From: an uncultured Cycloclasticus sp.
Lineage (GTDB): Bacteria > Pseudomonadota > Gammaproteobacteria > Methylococcales > Cycloclasticaceae
NCBI GenBank assembly: GCA_913057515.1
Contig: CAJXOJ010000001.1
Coordinates: forward strand, 62,001 to 126,000
DNA length: 64,000 nt
Direction: 5' to 3'
Shown here: positions 21,634 to 36,704 of the stretch, one piece after another
Layout of the letters: each line of letters opens with the position of its first letter
Position numbering within the stretch: the stretch's first letter is position 1
Made by a program: the position numbers and the translations under genes
The notes under the pieces: generated by a model
The model's input: the letters and a program-made list of their open reading frames with translations, nothing else
Database searches by the model: none
Told to the model about the DNA's origin: nothing

Positions 21634-24600
21634 TTAAGCTGCCTGTGCGGCAGTGAACACATCAAAGCATCATGGCACCTAAGCGGCTTTTTTCTAAGCT
21701 GCCTGTGCGGCAGTGAACTAACTTGTAGGGCTGAATCTATACCAATAAAGTTTCTAAGCTGCCTGTGCGGCAGTGAACTGGGGCCGTGCAGATTTAGCCA
21801 GCATATTAATTTTCTAAGCTGCCTGTGCGGCAGTGAACCAAAACACCCAGCGTTAGCACCTATAACGATTTTTCTAAGCTGCCTGTGCGGCAGTGAACTT
21901 GCGTTGGCTTCTACGTTGTCGAACGGGTCTTTTCTAAGCTGCCTGTGCGGCAGTGAACTCTTTGTACGTTCCTTTTTTTGAGAAAATATATTTCTAAGCT
22001 GCCTGTGCGGCAGTGAACCTCTACGGCTTGCGATCGATTCATGGGTATTATTTCTAAGCTGCCTGTGCGGCAGTGAACAGAAGCAGGCGGTAGAAAAGAA
22101 TTCACAAACATTTCTAAGCTGCCTGTGCGGCAGTGAACAAGCTAATGAGGATTAGTCTTTGATTACCAAGTTTCTAAGCTGCCTGTGCGGCAGTGAACCC
22201 ATCGAGTGTGACATAGCTGTATTTTTTATCTTTCTAAGCTGCCTGTGCGGCAGTGAACAGATGGGAGTGAGTGTATTTCTGATTTGTCGCTTTCTAAGCT
22301 GCCTGTGCGGCAGTGAACATCGCCAAACGTAGCATCAGAATCCAACGCAGTTTCTAAGCTGCCTGTGCGGCAGTGAACCCAGAATAAGGCTAAGGCAAGC
22401 GCAGCCGCAATTTCTAAGCTGCCTGTGCGGCAGTGAACTTAGCATAGAGCCGCAGCCACGTAGCAAAAATTTTCTAAGCTGCCTGTGCGGCAGTGAACTT
22501 CATGGCTATGCTTTTGCGTTGTATGATTTTTTTCTAAGCTGCCTGTGCGGCAGTGAACAACAAAAGCCCAGCTTTTTGATCTACAAGCGTTTTCTAAGCT
22601 GCCTGTGCGGCAGTGAACGGTCTGAGGCTGTTTTTGGTGAATATAAAGATTTTCTAAGCTGCCTGTGCGGCAGTGAACAAAGGGTGGTCTTGATGATTTA
22701 CGTAAGGCTATTTCTAAGCTGCCTGTGCGGCAGTGAACTAACAACATTTGTTATTTTTAAATACTTCGGATTTCTAAGCTGCCTGTGCGGCAGTGAACGA
22801 AAACGTATTAGGCTCGCGCAAAAAACGAATTTTCTAAGCTGCCTGTGCGGCAGTGAACCAAACGATGTAGCTATTAATAAGATTGTTACATTTCTAAGCT
22901 GCCTGTGCGGCAGTGAACGGATTTCTTCATTGTCAGAAGGCCATACGCCATTTCTAAGCTGCCTGTGCGGCAGTGAACGTTTAGACACAATCGAAGCGGC
23001 TCTAAATCGTTTTCTAAGCTGCCTGTGCGGCAGTGAACAATGGGGTGATATGGGTGCTGTTGGTTATGAATTTCTAAGCTGCCTGTGCGGCAGTGAACCA
23101 ACAGATAGTGAACTAGTCAAAGATAGTGTTTTTCTAAGCTGCCTGTGCGGCAGTGAACGCTAAGCGGTATGAGAACTTCAAGCAGATTAATTTCTAAGCT
23201 GCCTGTGCGGCAGTGAACTGAACATGGCCGATTGCACTAGAAACCCTTGTTTTCTAAGCTGCCTGTGCGGCAGTGAACTGATTTATGGTTCGCATTCGGC
23301 ACATCGGCATTTTCTAAGCTGCCTGTGCGGCAGTGAACCTGGGTAGTAAGAACGCGGCGAATATGGTGATTTTCTAAGCTGCCTGTGCGGCAGTGAACGT
23401 GAAAATAACCCCGTGGACATACAACGCAAATTTCTAAGCTGCCTGTGCGGCAGTGAACGATAATTTACACCGATTACGCACCGCTTTTCATTTCTAAGCT
23501 GCCTGTGCGGCAGTGAACAATATGAGGCAACGCAGATAGTAGCGAAACGATTTCTAAGCTGCCTGTGCGGCAGTGAACGGGGCGATGCCGCTTAGGCGTG
23601 TTGCTCGTAGTTTCTAAGCTGCCTGTGCGGCAGTGAACTAAACACACTCGCCAAGTCCGTTGGAGTATGATTTCTAAGCTGCCTGTGCGGCAGTGAACAG
23701 CGAGTACCTAAAGACCTTGCCGCAATGGATTTTCTAAGCTGCCTGTGCGGCAGTGAACTTAAAATCACCTTGTGCAAAGGCGTGTTTAGCTTTCTAAGCT
23801 GCCTGTGCGGCAGTGAACATCTAGAAGACACAGAAGGTTGTATATTAGTCTTTCTAAGCTGCCTGTGCGGCAGTGAACGCATTTGATGTGTCGTTAGGTG
23901 CGGGTAAAGCTTTCTAAGCTGCCTGTGCGGCAGTGAACATTTCTGATGTGGAAGTAATGGCTAATACGTATTTCTAAGCTGCCTGTGCGGCAGTGAACGA
24001 GGATGATGAGTTGTTTCATTCGTTGATTAATTTCTAAGCTGCCTGTGCGGCAGTGAACACTCAAAAGCGTTTGGCTCATACTTCCGCAAATTTCTAAGCT
24101 GCCCGTGCGGCAGTGAACGAGCCGTTAGCGACTAGCGCCTGTGGTGTACATTTCTAAGCTGCCTGTGCGGCAGTGAACGAAAGCAACGCACGTTATATGC
24201 GCGAACTGGTTTTCTAAGCTGCCTGTGCGGCAGTGAACATTTAAGCGTGTCGAGTGTTTTAGATATTCAATTTCTAAGCTGCCTGTGCGGCAGTGAACAT
24301 ATGAAAAAAACAGACTTCCCGTTCATCAAATTTCTAAGCTGCCTGTGCGGCAGTGAACAAGCAGCCCTCAGAAGCGCGCCTATTTGATATTTTCTAAGCT
24401 GCCTGTGCGGCAGTGAACTTTTCTATATACAGTATCATCACACAAACTCCTTTCTAAGCTGCCTGTGCGGCAGTGAACACATTTATCCCTTATTCATTGG
24501 CTTAACGATCTTTCTAAGCTGCCTGTGCGGCAGTGAACTTAGACGGTGTAGTTTCAGAAGTAGAAGAAGTTTTCTAAGCTGCCTGTGCGGCAGTGAACTA

Positions 24601-29863: not shown

Positions 29864-32770
29864 TTACTCTCCTTGAGTTTCTAGTTGATGAGCTGAAATA
29901 GCTCCAATTGGTTGGTTCTTTCCCATCGCATAATAAATTGCGAATGAATTAGGGGCCGCTTCCACTCGCTTTAAGTCTTCAGGTGTGTAGCTTAAATAAA
30001 TAGGGGTTTCTGGGCTTCTAGCCTCACCTAACAACACACTGTCTTTATAAGCCTTTTTCGCACTCTCTTTTATGTTGTGGTGTTTTTTTGCCATAAAGGC
30101 AAGCAAGTCTCTTTCACTTGCACCATAACCACAAATAAGCTCCACAGACATCGTTAAATGGCCATCAGTATCACTTTCGCTATAAGCATACTCATTTGGA
30201 AACTCCTCTTTCCCGTTGCCAATATTTAATACGGCCATCTGTGCAAATCGGTTATCGCCCCTCAATGAATTCTTTTTGATCTTTGGTTGGTCTTCTTTTG
30301 GCTTTCTTTTGCTTGGAAAAGAGACCGGATCCATCACTTTTGCATTGATGACATCTACGCTCTTTTTTAACGCGGCAAGCATATCTTGCTCTACAGCCAC
30401 TCTGCTTTTTTGATCATTGTAAAAATCTTTATATATTTGGTACAGATCAGAAATTGTGAGGGTTTGTTTATCCGAAATTTTCTCCTGTAAAAACTCACCC
30501 CATGCCTTAGCGGCTTGCAGACAATGAGATTGATTTAGAAAACGGGCACATGCCCCACTTTGCTTACCACTTGCTAACGTCTCAGGTATTGCTATAACAA
30601 AAGTATTTATGCCCTCATTTTCACCAAATCGATCCAAGCGCCCCAAGCGCTGTAGTTGATTTTCTGCATGGGTAAACTCTGAAACCATTTTGGCAGAGGT
30701 AATATTAAGCGATGCTTGGACAATCGGCCCTGATCTTAAAACCGCATACTCCCTTGAACCGCCTTTTTTGAACGTGTTAAAAACTTTTTCAAACAACGCC
30801 TGTTTATCTGATTTTTTGTACTTTGAGTGAAACAAAAGTGCTTTTTCGGTATCTTGATTTTTAATAAAACTTTTTTGCGCTGTAATGGCTGTATTGCTGA
30901 TAACAATCGTATTATCTGGCTGAGACTGATACAGCGGATTGCTTCCCTTATCACTCTCATCAAAAGGGGGGAATTCGATTTTATATTGACCTCTATTAAA
31001 GCTATCAACCCCTATAATGTCGGCCTCATTTAAAGCCAATAACTCATCAATAAAATAGTAATTGGGTGTTGCCGACACCAATAGTGCATTTGCCTTATCA
31101 CCCTGCATTTTTTTACACTCTACTAATTCGGCAAACAGTAGATTAAATGCAGGCATATTGATGTACTCATGATACTCATCAAATACGATGTGGGCATTCA
31201 TGTACTGAACAAGCCCCGTTACTTTTTTATGCGTTGTAATTGTGTTTATGACTTGATCAATCGTTGTTAAAACGATGTCTCCAGAAAACTCCCCCCCCTC
31301 TGGCGTATCAATCGCGTTTCCATTTTCGTGGATTTCTTTAAATTCACCCGTACAAATTTCAATCCTCGTCTTGGGTAAGTATTCACTGCTTGTTAAATCA
31401 TTCATTAACCCCTGACAGACCTGCACCCTCGGGCAGACCCAAATTATCTTTCTTGCATTGGTGTTTGCGGCCCACTCTAAGGCGACTTTTGTTTTCCCAC
31501 AGCCTGCGGGGCCATTTAGGACACCAATCACAACCTCTTCATCTGACAGTTCTTGAGCTGCTATTTTCTGCTCTTTGTTTCTTGTGCTATCAGGGTATTC
31601 TTTCTCAAATCCCTGCAAGCAGCTCTTAATCTCTGTTTTTAGCCCTCTATCAACTAACAAAGCTTCTTCTAATAAATCATCCAAGGTTGATTCTTCTATA
31701 TGTTGATTTAGTCTTTCTGCACTTAATGCTGAAACCAGCCTGTCAGCCGTTGTAACGACTGTTCTAGCAATGCTGTTTCTAGCATTTTCTGAAATGTTTT
31801 TTTGGTAATCATTCACTCTCGTTTTTTCTGAATACCTTTTATATTTTGGCAGCCTTTCCTCTTCAATTTCATCTAGCCTTGTATCACTTGGCTCCCGCGC
31901 AGGAAGAGTCAGAGATAGGTCTCCATCATAAAAATAATTTTCTGAGATAATATTTATTCTTTCTATTACCCAGTGGGCCGCATGAAATACTTCAGTAAGC
32001 TTTGTCTCTCTCAACTTGCTGTACAGCATATCAAGGCTAAAACTTTTCGGTTTTCCGCTTTTTTCAGCACCCCGAAACCACCGGTCATGATGCCAATAAA
32101 TAGCATGTTCAGCCTGCCTCTTTACATTGGAGTTTAAAAAAGCCTGTTTACTTAATAAATAAAACAGTAACGCTGAAATCTCATTGTGCCGAGGATAGTT
32201 TTTAGATTTACTGTCGTCATGTTGCCCATCTTCTGGAATGGCCAGATCTAAAGCCCCTTTCTTTTTTAGTACTCTCCCTATCCATGCCTGAAAGCTATGG
32301 TCAATTTTCCCCATATCATGCCAACAACCTGCTACAAAAACAGCTTGTGCCAACTTCTCATCATCAACCAACTTCTTACACAGTTGCTGAGCCACATACC
32401 CCACAGCAAACAAGTGCTGCTCTAACGGCTGCTGCTTAGTATTCGCATACAGTTCTTCCATTACCATTTCTCCAAGAAATAATTCTTTATTTGTATAATT
32501 TACCGGCACAATCCCCTCCGCATTAAACTTATCTCTATTCCCGACGCACCAGATAAACTCACTTCTTGACCGACTCCGAATCCAAAAACAACTCACCGCC
32601 GTATTCTTGCTGGCGGTTTTCCTTAATAGTTTTTTTACAGCCTGCAAACCTTCTTCGGTGATGACGGTTTGCCAAGTGTTATCTCCAATGCGGTTGGCAA
32701 AGGCATCTAATACTCTTCGTGTTCTATTCAGGGCTTTTTTCTGGCATTGTGAAACAAAGGTGACCATCAT
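29864..32770 (-). CDS. cas3f: Cas2-Cas3 fusion nuclease-helicase (type I-F)
   Basis: 968 aa. It has an N-terminal Cas2 domain (~1-95), then an HD nuclease with [12 protein letters not shown] (HD at 151-152) and YWHHDRW, and a superfamily 2 helicase with Walker [10 protein letters not shown], box [10 protein letters not shown] (DEYH), motif III LLVSATP and [12 protein letters not shown]. The Cas2-3 fusion is diagnostic of type I-F and couples spacer acquisition with target degradation. The C-terminal domain extends past residue 800. It overlaps the cas1 stop by 4 bases. All motifs are intact, so interference and adaptation look functional. Confidence 0.95.
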
Positions 32771-33741
32771 TGATTGTCACCATCAGCTGATTCTTTGTTT
32801 TGGTGGTGCTCTAACGCTACGGTTTTGACTTGTTCGAACATGAAGTCTAGTGCTTTATGTTGGGTAAATGCTTGTAAACACTGCTGGCGAAATTCTTGCT
32901 CTGTCGCTCCCTCTTTGGCACAAATAAAAGCCCACGGAAGCACTAAGGTATCTTTAATTAAATCAGCCACATCAAAAACCAGTGCGCCACGACGAGTTTT
33001 ACCGTGCATGACTGCAAATCCATGCGGAATACCTAACACCCAAAGTGTAGTAGCGGCCAAGCCGTAAGCTAAATAATTACCGTGATTTAGGAAGGCGTTG
33101 GCATCGTCTATACTGTTATGTTGGCGCACGAAGTCTTTTTGTTTGGTTCTAGTGGCTGCAATTTTATATAACGATTTGGTCAGCTGTGCTTCGACTAAAA
33201 GCAGTTTAGACACGTCTTGGCAATGCTCTATTTTTGCAGAGAAGTTTGTTAGGGCTTTGTTAACATCGGTGTCGTCTAAATTAAAGCCTTCATCTTTTAA
33301 GTCTCTATCTTTTGCCCAAACTTTTTGCATGTAACCGACGCGTTGCTGCTGGAACTGTTTAGCGACTGTTAGGCGTTTTTCCTGCTCAAACCAAAATTGC
33401 ATCCAACCTTGTATATATTCGGTTGGGCGGTATTCGCTTTGTGGGGTCATCCATTCAATTTCAGTGCCCATTAGCAAGGGCGTGCCGCCACTGCCACTAA
33501 AGCCAATTAACACACCCGCCGAGGCCAGCATTCTAACAGCAGCCTGAGTAATTGACGTGCCTGTACCCAAAAGAATACAGGTGGTATTGGCAATGGGAAT
33601 ATTCCAGTACTGCTTTTCGTTTTTTTCCTCTGTTAAGTACAAAACCCTGCCGTCCTTTTGCATGACACGGCACATGTCTAAATAATAAATATTCGCCCGT
33701 TTGGAGTGCAGTATTGCTTTTAAATCGGTGAGCTGTTCCAT
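32767..33741 (-). CDS. cas1: CRISPR integrase Cas1 (type I-F)
   Basis: 324 aa from ATG 33741 (MEQLTDLKAIL); a TTG at 33762 could extend it by 7 residues. It contains the Cas1 metal-site residues: Glu in LLLVEAQLTKSLY, His in GFAVMHGKTR, and Asp/acidic residues in LVFDVADLIKD. It forms the integrase with the Cas2 part of Cas2-3. The ATG lies 1 base after the stop of a 58-codon ORF with its own strong ribosome site, so cas1 translation may be coupled to it. Confidence 0.95.
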   Translation of the reverse strand: MEQLTDLKAILHSKRANIYYLDMCRVMQKDGRVLYLTEEKNEKQYWNIPIANTTCILLGTGTSITQAAVRMLASAGVLIGFSGSGGTPLLMGTEIEWMTPQSEYRPTEYIQGWMQFWFEQEKRLTVAKQFQQQRVGYMQKVWAKDRDLKDEGFNLDDTDVNKALTNFSAKIEHCQDVSKLLLVEAQLTKSLYKIAATRTKQKDFVRQHNSIDDANAFLNHGNYLAYGLAATTLWVLGIPHGFAVMHGKTRRGALVFDVADLIKDTLVLPWAFICAKEGATEQEFRQQCLQAFTQHKALDFMFEQVKTVALEHHQNKESADGDNQ

Positions 33742-33742
33742 A

Positions 33743-33919
33743 TCAATTAAACTCGCACTCAAATTTGAACTTTAATCCGTCCCCAAGGGTTCGGAGATTC
33801 TTTAATGCCTGTAACACTCGCGGTGGTATGCGAGTTACTGAGGTTTTGCTGAATGTTACTGCTCCTAGCGACAGCCCCAACCATGCTAAAATTGCTCTAC
33901 GTTTTGCGATACTGACCAT
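33743..33919 (-). CDS. Putative 58-aa small protein at the head of the cas operon
   Basis: ATG at 33919 is preceded by AGGAGGT (33924-33930) at ideal spacing, stronger than the ribosome site visible for cas1. The product begins MVSIAKRRAILAWLGLSLGA, with two basic residues ahead of a short hydrophobic stretch, and ends LKFKFECEFN. Its TGA (33743-33745) is 1 base from the cas1 ATG. I do not recognise the protein. It could be a genuine small Cas-associated protein, a translational leader for cas1, or the relic of an older gene. Support is the ribosome site and the exact junction, not homology. Confidence 0.5.
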   Translation of the reverse strand: MVSIAKRRAILAWLGLSLGAVTFSKTSVTRIPPRVLQALKNLRTLGDGLKFKFECEFN

Positions 33920-34036
33920 GACTACCTCCTGTCGTTCGGTTATTAATCCAACATAAATTTTGAAACCTTTAAGACTCTACCACCTGATAGTGACAAAACA
34001 TGTCCGGTTGGTTTAATTACTTTTTTAATTTATTCG

Positions 34037-34999
34037 TTACGTTGAATAGGCCTTTATTGCTGTTTCTAATTTAGCCAGCACCGACTGATGTAATGTTGAT
34101 GGAGCCTCCACAAGAACATGAGGTGTATAGCGTAAAATGTCTTGTGTTAATTCTCGTTCATCGGCATAGGGGATAGTGAGCACATACTCCTCCCCTTGCC
34201 AGTAACCCGTTTGTTTTGGGTGCCACTGTTGTTGCGAAATTTCTTTCGCAATGGCAGGTAAAAACCGTAACGTTGCCATGTACTTTGCCTTACCTGAAAA
34301 GATACCGTAACTGTTCGAAAAGTGAGCTTGCCGCTTAACGTTGGATATTTTTTTTAATATTGCTTTATGTAACTTAACGGTGCTAATTCTTGCCACACTA
34401 AAGGTTCGCAAGTTCTTACGTAGGTGGCACCAAGCATCTAAGTACCAGTTTTCACGGTAATAAATAAGCCCTTGCGGGCTAATCCGCCTTTGTGTGTTTA
34501 TTTGGCTGTAACTGAGGTATTCAATATCCAGTTGCTGTTCATTCATTAGTGCTTCACTAATCAGTTGAAAAGCATGCGTAGGAAGTTGTCGGTGACCAAT
34601 CGGCAGTATTTTTATCACATCACGGAACACACTCGGTTGAATACCTCGCGCTGCTAATAATTTCTTAATTTCGCGCTCAACCGGCTTTAGCTCACCCGTT
34701 AAGTTATTTGGTGCTAAGTTCTCTAATAAATGTAGTAGAAGGCTTAACGATTGCAACTCTCCTGCTGTTAGCCAAAGACCCGGTAATTCAAACCGATCAG
34801 CTTTATCATCAACATAATGCCAGCCTTTTCCACGACGACTATATTCAACTGGTGCGCCATACCGTTGCATGGTCTCTATATTACGACGAATAGTACGCTC
34901 TGAGCATTCCAGTATTTCGGCTAGCTTAGCCAATGATACTGGACGCCTATGACTTCGTAATTCGCGATGAATCTGTTGAATACGATCAAATTTATCCAT
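34037..34999 (-). CDS. WYL-domain transcriptional regulator adjacent to the cas operon
   Basis: 320 aa. It has an N-terminal winged helix-turn-helix (~1-60: LAKLAEILECSERTIRRNIETM), and the WYL ligand-sensing domain (~135-215) with SPQGLIYYRENWYLDAWCH and RTFSVARI. A WCX-type C-terminal domain follows. WYL regulators of this kind are frequently linked to CRISPR-Cas and other defence loci and can bind nucleic-acid ligands. It lies upstream of the cas operon in the same direction, about 117 bp before the small ORF. A role in controlling cas expression is inference from position. Confidence 0.88.
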   Translation of the reverse strand: MDKFDRIQQIHRELRSHRRPVSLAKLAEILECSERTIRRNIETMQRYGAPVEYSRRGKGWHYVDDKADRFELPGLWLTAGELQSLSLLLHLLENLAPNNLTGELKPVEREIKKLLAARGIQPSVFRDVIKILPIGHRQLPTHAFQLISEALMNEQQLDIEYLSYSQINTQRRISPQGLIYYRENWYLDAWCHLRKNLRTFSVARISTVKLHKAILKKISNVKRQAHFSNSYGIFSGKAKYMATLRFLPAIAKEISQQQWHPKQTGYWQGEEYVLTIPYADERELTQDILRYTPHVLVEAPSTLHQSVLAKLETAIKAYST

Positions 35000-35113
35000 A
35001 AATTTAAAACCACCCTCCGTTGGTGTTGAACTGGCAGTTTAGCCCAGCTATTTTAAACTAGCCATATAAAAAAACTTTACTCATTAAAAACATTTTTAAG
35101 CCAGCGACAACCC

Positions 35114-35132
35114 ACGTCTAACTTTTAGACGT
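35114..35132. promoter_or_regulatory. Perfect 8-bp inverted repeat upstream of the WYL gene
   Basis: ACGTCTAA-CTT-TTAGACGT, a 19-bp palindrome with perfect arms, lies about 115 bp before the WYL regulator start and 47 bp past the hipA stop. The short spacing suits a dimeric regulator operator. Absence of a T-run on the minus strand argues against a hipA terminator. I saw no second copy in front of the cas operon. Confidence 0.45.
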
Positions 35133-35178
35133 AATATTGATAGGACGTCGAGTGTATTTTTCCCACGCCTTAATTCCA

Positions 35179-36432
35179 CTATTTACTTATATTAAAAATA
35201 GTGCCAATCTTGCTTTTACGCTGCTCAATTAACGCGACTATTTTTTTAACTTGATCATTCTCGCCATGTTGTTGCTGGCACTCAGCTGCCAGTTCAACTG
35301 ATATTGTCGATAGTGTATTTGCCATATCTAGACACCTTTTCCTAACGAGCTTAAATTTGATACCGGTGTCTTTTGAGAACTGTTCCCAACGCCTCTCAAT
35401 AATCCAATCGGGCCTGTCTTCCCCGCCTATTTTCATGGCCATTTTTTGAGCCAAATTAGGGTAGATGGCTGTGCTCATCAGGTCATAAAAGGGGGCTAGT
35501 AGAGGCCCTGCCGAGGTTAGCATGAGTGAAATATTTTTGCCGTGAGCATCGGCATTGCCAATTAATACATTGAAGATAACCCAATTGAGTAGTTCGTTTA
35601 AGTCTTTGGCTGGCTGAATACTATGGTTGCGTACTAAGTCAAAACATGACTTTAGGCTTGGGCCACCTTCTTTTTCATACTTGTTAGTAGGGGGAATGGC
35701 CATTGCCTGACAGAAATCTTCTTGAGGCAATCGTATTAACTCATCTTGTTCATTACGAATACGGTCATAACGTGTAATGAGGTATAACGGTACTGCTTTA
35801 TGGAGGATTTGTGTTTCGGGGACATTTAAGCCTATCCTTTTAGCCAACTGCATACAGAAATATTCATTTTCAACGGTATTAGGGTAATGCTTTATGGGCG
35901 GTTTTAAAATATGGCTACTCGCCGCTATTCCCGTTGGTATGCTGATCTCATGACCATTATAAAAAACGGGCAGTTTGTTTTGTGCGCCAGCTAGCGATAA
36001 TCTAATATCCTGTTCACCGGCCATCATCGGCTGTATTCGCAACTTTACGATTAATTGATTTAACGCATCATCATTAAGTTTTTTATAATCACCTTGTGTT
36101 GGGAGACCTATTCCTTCCGGGATCAAGCTCACAGCACCGGCACACTCTCCCGCAATGGCTTCTAATAGGGAAAAATCATTGTTTTCAGATAAGCCCAAAC
36201 TTTTTGCGACTAAATGCCTTATTTCTGCTTCAGGTAGTAAATTAGAGAAAAACGGTTGGGCACGTGCATGATGATAAGGTTCAGTTCGTACAGGTAAGCT
36301 TAGCGAAAGTGGCTGTGACTCATGATTTTCAACCCACTCAGGGTAGTATTCAAATACAAAGCGTCGTTCATCATCTAAGTAAAGTTTCCCTACGCGTTCT
36401 GCTGATAGGTACACGTCAAGCACTTGGCTCAT
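35179..36432 (-). CDS. hipA: HipA-type serine/threonine kinase toxin
   Basis: 417-aa HipA family protein. It has an N-terminal couple domain (YLSAERVGKLYLDDERRFVFEYYPEW), the HipA motif SLAGAQNKLPVF, catalytic-loop GNADAHGKNISLM and the metal-binding DLMSTA. E. coli HipA phosphorylates glutamyl-tRNA synthetase and triggers persistence; the target here is unknown. All kinase motifs are intact. Its start overlaps the hipB stop by 4 bases, the usual antitoxin-first order. Confidence 0.9.
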   Translation of the reverse strand: MSQVLDVYLSAERVGKLYLDDERRFVFEYYPEWVENHESQPLSLSLPVRTEPYHHARAQPFFSNLLPEAEIRHLVAKSLGLSENNDFSLLEAIAGECAGAVSLIPEGIGLPTQGDYKKLNDDALNQLIVKLRIQPMMAGEQDIRLSLAGAQNKLPVFYNGHEISIPTGIAASSHILKPPIKHYPNTVENEYFCMQLAKRIGLNVPETQILHKAVPLYLITRYDRIRNEQDELIRLPQEDFCQAMAIPPTNKYEKEGGPSLKSCFDLVRNHSIQPAKDLNELLNWVIFNVLIGNADAHGKNISLMLTSAGPLLAPFYDLMSTAIYPNLAQKMAMKIGGEDRPDWIIERRWEQFSKDTGIKFKLVRKRCLDMANTLSTISVELAAECQQQHGENDQVKKIVALIEQRKSKIGTIFNISK

Positions 36433-36704
36433 GATGGCTCACCTGACGCATCTAGGGTGAAGCTTGAGTGTGTCCAGCCTCTGGGCTGAATTGCCAACTC
36501 TAAGCCTAAGCTATTCAGCACTTGTAAGACCTTACCCATTTCAATTGTTTGTTTCCCATTTTCCAAATCAGATATAAATCGCACTCCCACACCACATAAC
36601 GACGCTAATTCAACTTGTGTTGCGCCCTGTCGCTTCCGTTGCTGTCGCACGATATCACCCAATGCTTGCGCGCTTAATATTTTCCCGCTCGGTAATGTTG
36701 TCAT
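36429..36704 (-). CDS. hipB: HipB-type antitoxin, XRE-family DNA-binding protein
   Basis: 91 aa with a central helix-turn-helix (IVRQQRKRQGATQVELASLCGVGVRFISDLENGK). It neutralises HipA and represses its own operon. Two TCCCGTT-MGGGA half-palindromes at 36733-36744 and 36783-36794 lie just upstream and are likely its operators. Confidence 0.88.
   Translation of the reverse strand: MTTLPSGKILSAQALGDIVRQQRKRQGATQVELASLCGVGVRFISDLENGKQTIEMGKVLQVLNSLGLELAIQPRGWTHSSFTLDASGEPS

Follow-up and report, generated by a model that had tools for sequence, protein, structure and literature searches.

A 58-codon reading frame at the head of a type I-F2 CRISPR-Cas operon as a probable relic of a HIRAN-domain gene

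HIRAN domains bind DNA ends. In termination-reinitiation, restart of the ribosome is common where the stop codon of one frame and the start codon of the next are spaced as in TGA-t-ATG. WYL-domain proteins are known accessories of CRISPR-Cas systems (PADLOC model description; PMC12669027, PMC8616872). A literature search covering titles and abstracts, with few subscription journals, returned no link of HIRAN with WYL and no description of HIRAN as a CRISPR-Cas neighbour, and the passages of PMC5512222 that were checked contain neither; this is a weak indication that the pairing of WYL and HIRAN genes described below is new.

The window analysed here, a stretch of 64,000 nucleotides from an uncultured Cycloclasticus sp., carries a type I-F2 (I-Fv) locus with genes for Cas1f, a Cas2-3 fusion, Cas7fv (NF040577, E 2.5e-147), Cas5fv and Cas6f, together with a CRISPR array of 60-bp repeat period. 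The cas1 gene (type I-F; TIGR03637 match) occupies 32767..33741 on the minus strand, with its ATG at 33741, and is preceded on that strand by an ORF of 58 codons (33743..33919; ATG at 33919, TGA at 33745-33743), which stands before the I-F2 genes and is not one of them. The Shine-Dalgarno (SD) sequence AGGAGGT (33924..33930, minus strand) lies 4 nt 5′ of the ORF ATG, a single base separates the ORF TGA from the cas1 ATG (TGA-t-ATG), and the SD of cas1 itself is a 3-nt GAG match only. The product has a basic N-terminus and 16 hydrophobic residues with a mean hydropathy of 1.76. The preliminary description was accurate in these respects: the I-F2 assignment is borne out by the Cas7fv and Cas5fv matches, the ribosome-binding site and the start and stop codons are as read from the minus-strand sequence, and the basic residues and short hydrophobic stretch are present. 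Rfam gives only tRNA-Lys, and the 3′ end of this tRNA, considered as an island attachment site, has no second copy within the window. The junction region folds no better than shuffled sequences (z -0.55), so a short inverted repeat there is no evidence of RNA structure, and a promoter scan of the strand that carries the ORF returned no sigma-70 match in its vicinity. Two ORFs elsewhere in the window, of 102 and 214 codons (22439-22747 and 22519-23163), are translated CRISPR repeats and spacers rather than genes.

Directly 5′ of the ORF, on the same strand, is a WYL-domain regulator (34037..34999, minus strand; HTH, WYL and WCX; PADLOC WYL, E 5.4e-43), followed further 5′ by a HipA-like gene and then an HTH gene, which may be a toxin-antitoxin pair beside the CRISPR-Cas genes. 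The HipA-like and WYL genes (34037-36704) form a block shared with a second genome of the genus (G016:C262, locus L014), in which the WYL part is 91% identical in DNA. A related WYL gene in G011 (L015, 1413-2390; 68% DNA identity) is located directly before the cas3-like gene of another system, with no HIRAN gene between, so WYL genes head different cas operons within the genus.

Searches with the 58-aa product agreed with the earlier impression that it resembles nothing known: Pfam, NCBIfam, PHROGs, PADLOC and viral contigs gave no match, plasmids and phages none better than E 3, and the PDB only compositional matches (leucine-rich-repeat composition). There was no convincing match in the genus outside the window's own genome and only chance-like matches in 369 genomes of the class. 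Conservation in close relatives, whose absence the preliminary description had named as refuting its reading, was not found. The frame is missing at both same-genus cas1 loci compared (G001 and G004), and no relative of the protein occurs in the kilobase 5′ of cas1 in 80 further I-F loci. In G001, where Cas1 is 97% identical, DNA homology stops 8 nt short of the cas1 start codon, and the DNA further upstream is unrelated; the DNA upstream of cas1 in G004 likewise differs from that of the window. The part shared with G001 (window 32493-33749; L010 15925-17181) is 91.5% identical and contains cas1 and the start of cas2-3. The G001 locus is a different I-F locus (no Cas7fv or Cas5fv match) at another chromosomal site, with flanks that are unrelated upstream and diverged downstream, and the alignment pattern looks like an exchange of the adaptation module. 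A 37-codon ORF in G001 also ends one base before cas1; it is unsupported, lacks an SD and is unrelated to the ORF of the window. A 31-codon ORF (MWKEIK...NMVY) with an AAGGAG SD is common to the WYL-cas1 gaps of two Candidatus Nitrotoga loci (L084, -248..-152; L085, -246..-150, relative to cas1), again with no relation to the ORF of the window.

The origin of the ORF became apparent when, for each locus that has a WYL gene, all frames between WYL and cas1 were listed. Several loci contain in this gap a gene encoding a protein of about 130 aa with the N-terminus M-x-RR-x-F/L; copies of the Nitrosomonas type have the C-terminus S.NPWERI.VEVRW, and the aligned proteins from other loci are HIRAN-domain proteins (PF08797; 5/5). 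In the gap of the window, the listing gives ASVTGIKESPNPWGRIKVQI*VRV* in a frame other than that of the ORF. This HIRAN C-terminus, IQQNLSNSHTTASVTGIKESPNPWGRIKVQI*VRV*, extends over 33747..33851 (minus strand) and ends at a TAA (33749-33747) located 5 nt upstream of cas1. The final 28 codons before the TAA, SHTTASVTGIKESPNPWGRIKVQI*VRV*, align with HIRAN C-termini without a gap and with the stop codons in register, including 12/28 identities to L076 and the common pattern AS..G.K.S.NPW.RI.V. The anchored BLOSUM score of this tail against HIRAN C-termini is 65, compared with a maximum of 30 in 20,000 shuffles, 9 for the best HIRAN-free locus and 46 for a known decayed copy (L046). A six-row HIRAN profile scores 17.1 bits in the old frame against a shuffle maximum of 13.0, and a broader 17-row model 14.7 against 13.7; none of 20,000 shuffles reached the real score with either model. 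When the profile was run over six frames of the whole window, the tail was the top match and ended at profile position 129 of 131. The C-terminal strand of HIRAN (PF08797), with NPWxRI and the stop position, is present in the window, and its occurrence in the gap is not due to chance.

The gene is no longer intact. A nonsense codon, TGA, interrupts the old HIRAN frame (33759..33761, minus strand) in an alignment column occupied by Arg in several relatives. None of the three minus-strand frames of the gap contains the HIRAN core (AGFQY, YD..AV, LGY.P), and the curated Pfam HIRAN model alone has no match in this genome. The full domain comprises about 90 residues; the absent core and the blank Pfam result make this sequence a relic and not a member of the HIRAN family. 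Over the last 87 nt, the tail is only about 50% identical in DNA to intact HIRAN copies. No relative with an intact copy of high DNA identity was found; in G016, the one genome of the genus with a 91%-identical WYL gene, the contig breaks off within that gene.

The 5′ part of the relic (33857..33919, minus strand) corresponds to the first ~21 codons of the ORF, MVSIAKRRAILAWLGLSLGAV, in which RR is followed by a hydrophobic, signal-like stretch. By the same feature rule, such an N-terminus is found in 9/10 HIRAN proteins and in 4/721 ATG-started frames of the window. The sequence match of this segment to the HIRAN profile is not significant, so the 5′ half is assigned by its signal character and by its position: it is on the right strand, 117 nt past WYL and before the HIRAN C-terminus. 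We infer that it belongs to the same gene as the HIRAN tail, and likewise infer the exact limits of the deletion. The ancestral gene would have encoded a protein of about 130 aa, bearing a signal of twin-arginine type at its N-terminus as well as a HIRAN domain, in one operon with WYL and cas1. An out-of-frame deletion would have removed about 75 internal codons, the entire HIRAN core, so that the old SD, start codon and signal now precede the last ~35 codons in a different frame, and the nonsense codon would also have arisen in the old HIRAN frame. A ribosome starting at the old ATG would then read the chimera to a chance TGA one base short of cas1, and the AGGAGGT would presumably come from the ancestral HIRAN gene. 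The number of bases from the ATG to the old stop frame cannot be divided by three, which makes the 58-codon frame a chimera of the signal and an out-of-frame tail. The 58-aa product was also considered as an in-frame internal deletion of HIRAN and rejected, as its profile score is no better than that of shuffles and the C-terminus is found in the other frame; the poor score is expected if the C-terminal half is read out of frame. Intact HIRAN genes end 5 nt (L043, exactly as the TAA of the window) and 8 nt (L121) before cas1, which accounts for the relic abutting cas1. The 58-codon ORF is very probably the relic of a HIRAN gene that once lay between the WYL regulator and cas1. It is explained by descent from a larger gene, not by selection for a 58-codon product.

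Other origins of the ORF have to be weighed against this descent. That the ORF arose by chance, without any history, is extremely improbable. Among random versions of the 295-nt WYL-cas1 gap, generated by a first-order Markov (dinucleotide-based) model, 2.7% contain a complete ORF that starts with ATG and has 58 codons or more, so that an ORF of this length is uncommon. The SD and the stop position are far rarer: an ORF of that length ends within -4..+5 nt of cas1 in 0.22% of random gaps, and none of 100,000 combined this length and end with AGGAGG. Such rarity calls for an explanation, and an origin without history is contradicted by the HIRAN C-terminus within this gap, whose anchored score is far above the shuffles. 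A small protein with a function of its own, such as a membrane peptide tied to I-F2 adaptation, would be in keeping with the basic N-terminus, the hydrophobic stretch and the strong SD, but it is very unlikely in view of the missing family match, the absence of the frame from the two same-genus cas1 loci and the 80 other I-F loci, and a C-terminal half that is a HIRAN C-terminus read out of frame. The proposal of a small Cas-associated protein is therefore not supported for the 58-aa product, whose frame is unconserved and largely an out-of-frame HIRAN read, and is right only in a weaker sense, in that the ancestral gene is a neighbour in the cas operon in other genomes.

The relic may nevertheless have kept a part in translation. 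Judged from the junction sequence, it might still be translated, with ribosomes that end at its TGA restarting at the cas1 ATG; we regard this as slightly short of an even chance, and a partial dependence of cas1 translation on it as about equally likely and unlikely. A further possibility is that the relic has been kept or re-used as a translational leader, in which the cas1 level would follow leader translation and the peptide sequence would be irrelevant. The well-spaced AGGAGGT, the abutting stop and a cas1 preceded by GAG alone agree with this, and in 4/83 I-F loci an ORF of 50 codons or more ends 0-5 nt before cas1, against 0.63 expected; 1/300 simulations reached 4. Part of this excess comes from real upstream genes, HIRAN among them, relatives show no conserved leader, and the position of the stop goes back in part to an operon in which HIRAN ended 5-8 nt before cas1, which explains it without selection. 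Retention as a leader is accordingly doubtful. It is compatible with the origin of the ORF from a HIRAN gene, to which it adds only selection.

The order WYL-HIRAN-cas1 recurs in relatives. Among 80 I-F genome loci, a WYL gene lies upstream of cas1 in 28, and a HIRAN gene or piece is found within 1.5 kb in 10. Eight of these 10 have WYL upstream; L056 is cut by a contig end, and no WYL gene was found in L076. The HIRAN copies in L046, L065, L070 and L089 are broken, indicating that HIRAN decay is recurrent. HIRAN matches were also obtained in 23 of 369 genomes of the class that were sampled separately; this second sample overlaps the 80 loci by one genome (L163 and L046, of equal length, are apparently the same contig). 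From the 23 genomes, 18 wider regions were inspected: WYL is nearby in 15, mostly directly upstream, and CRISPR-Cas genes adjoin HIRAN in 10. WYL-HIRAN pairs stand ahead of cas operons of type I-F at L149 862-1248 and L156 8890-9150, of I-E at L151 2323-2709 and L153 9122-9511 (typed by its Cas3), of I-C at L157 9090-9542, and of I-G at L150 8554-8940 and L152 9044-9433; HIRAN genes by I-F CRISPR-Cas genes are also found in L162, L163 and L166. From these arrangements, it can tentatively be proposed, with somewhat less confidence than doubt, that WYL and a small HIRAN protein, often with a Tat-like signal, head I-C, I-E, I-F and I-G operons, act in adaptation or its control and are repeatedly lost.

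The ORF itself is a decayed gene and ordinary in kind; the WYL-HIRAN pair is the useful lead. One candidate for a new small Cas protein is struck off, and the case illustrates a trap for small-protein surveys: as a gene in an operon decays, it can leave behind a short ORF that looks convincing and has a perfect ribosome-binding site. A further outcome is the WYL-HIRAN pair that recurs at the start of several type I CRISPR-Cas operons, where a DNA-end-binding domain beside the spacer-acquisition gene, together with its repeated loss, offers a lead that can be tested on how adaptation is controlled by accessory genes.

Compared with described systems, the intact WYL gene of the window is like the PADLOC WYL protein and the WYL accessory protein of Cas13d systems, and its regulation of this operon is putative. 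The known termination-reinitiation leader ORFs combine a strong SD on the first ORF, an abutting stop and a weak SD on the second gene, all of which are found here; unlike them, the ORF of the window has no conserved peptide, and its coupling to cas1 is probably passive. With the small proteobacterial HIRAN proteins that carry a Tat-like signal, the relic has in common the C-terminal signature, the position between WYL and cas1, and the N-terminus with RR and a hydrophobic stretch. It differs from HIRAN proteins (PF08797) in its deleted core, in its two halves lying in separate frames and in its nonsense codon, and is not a functional member of that family.
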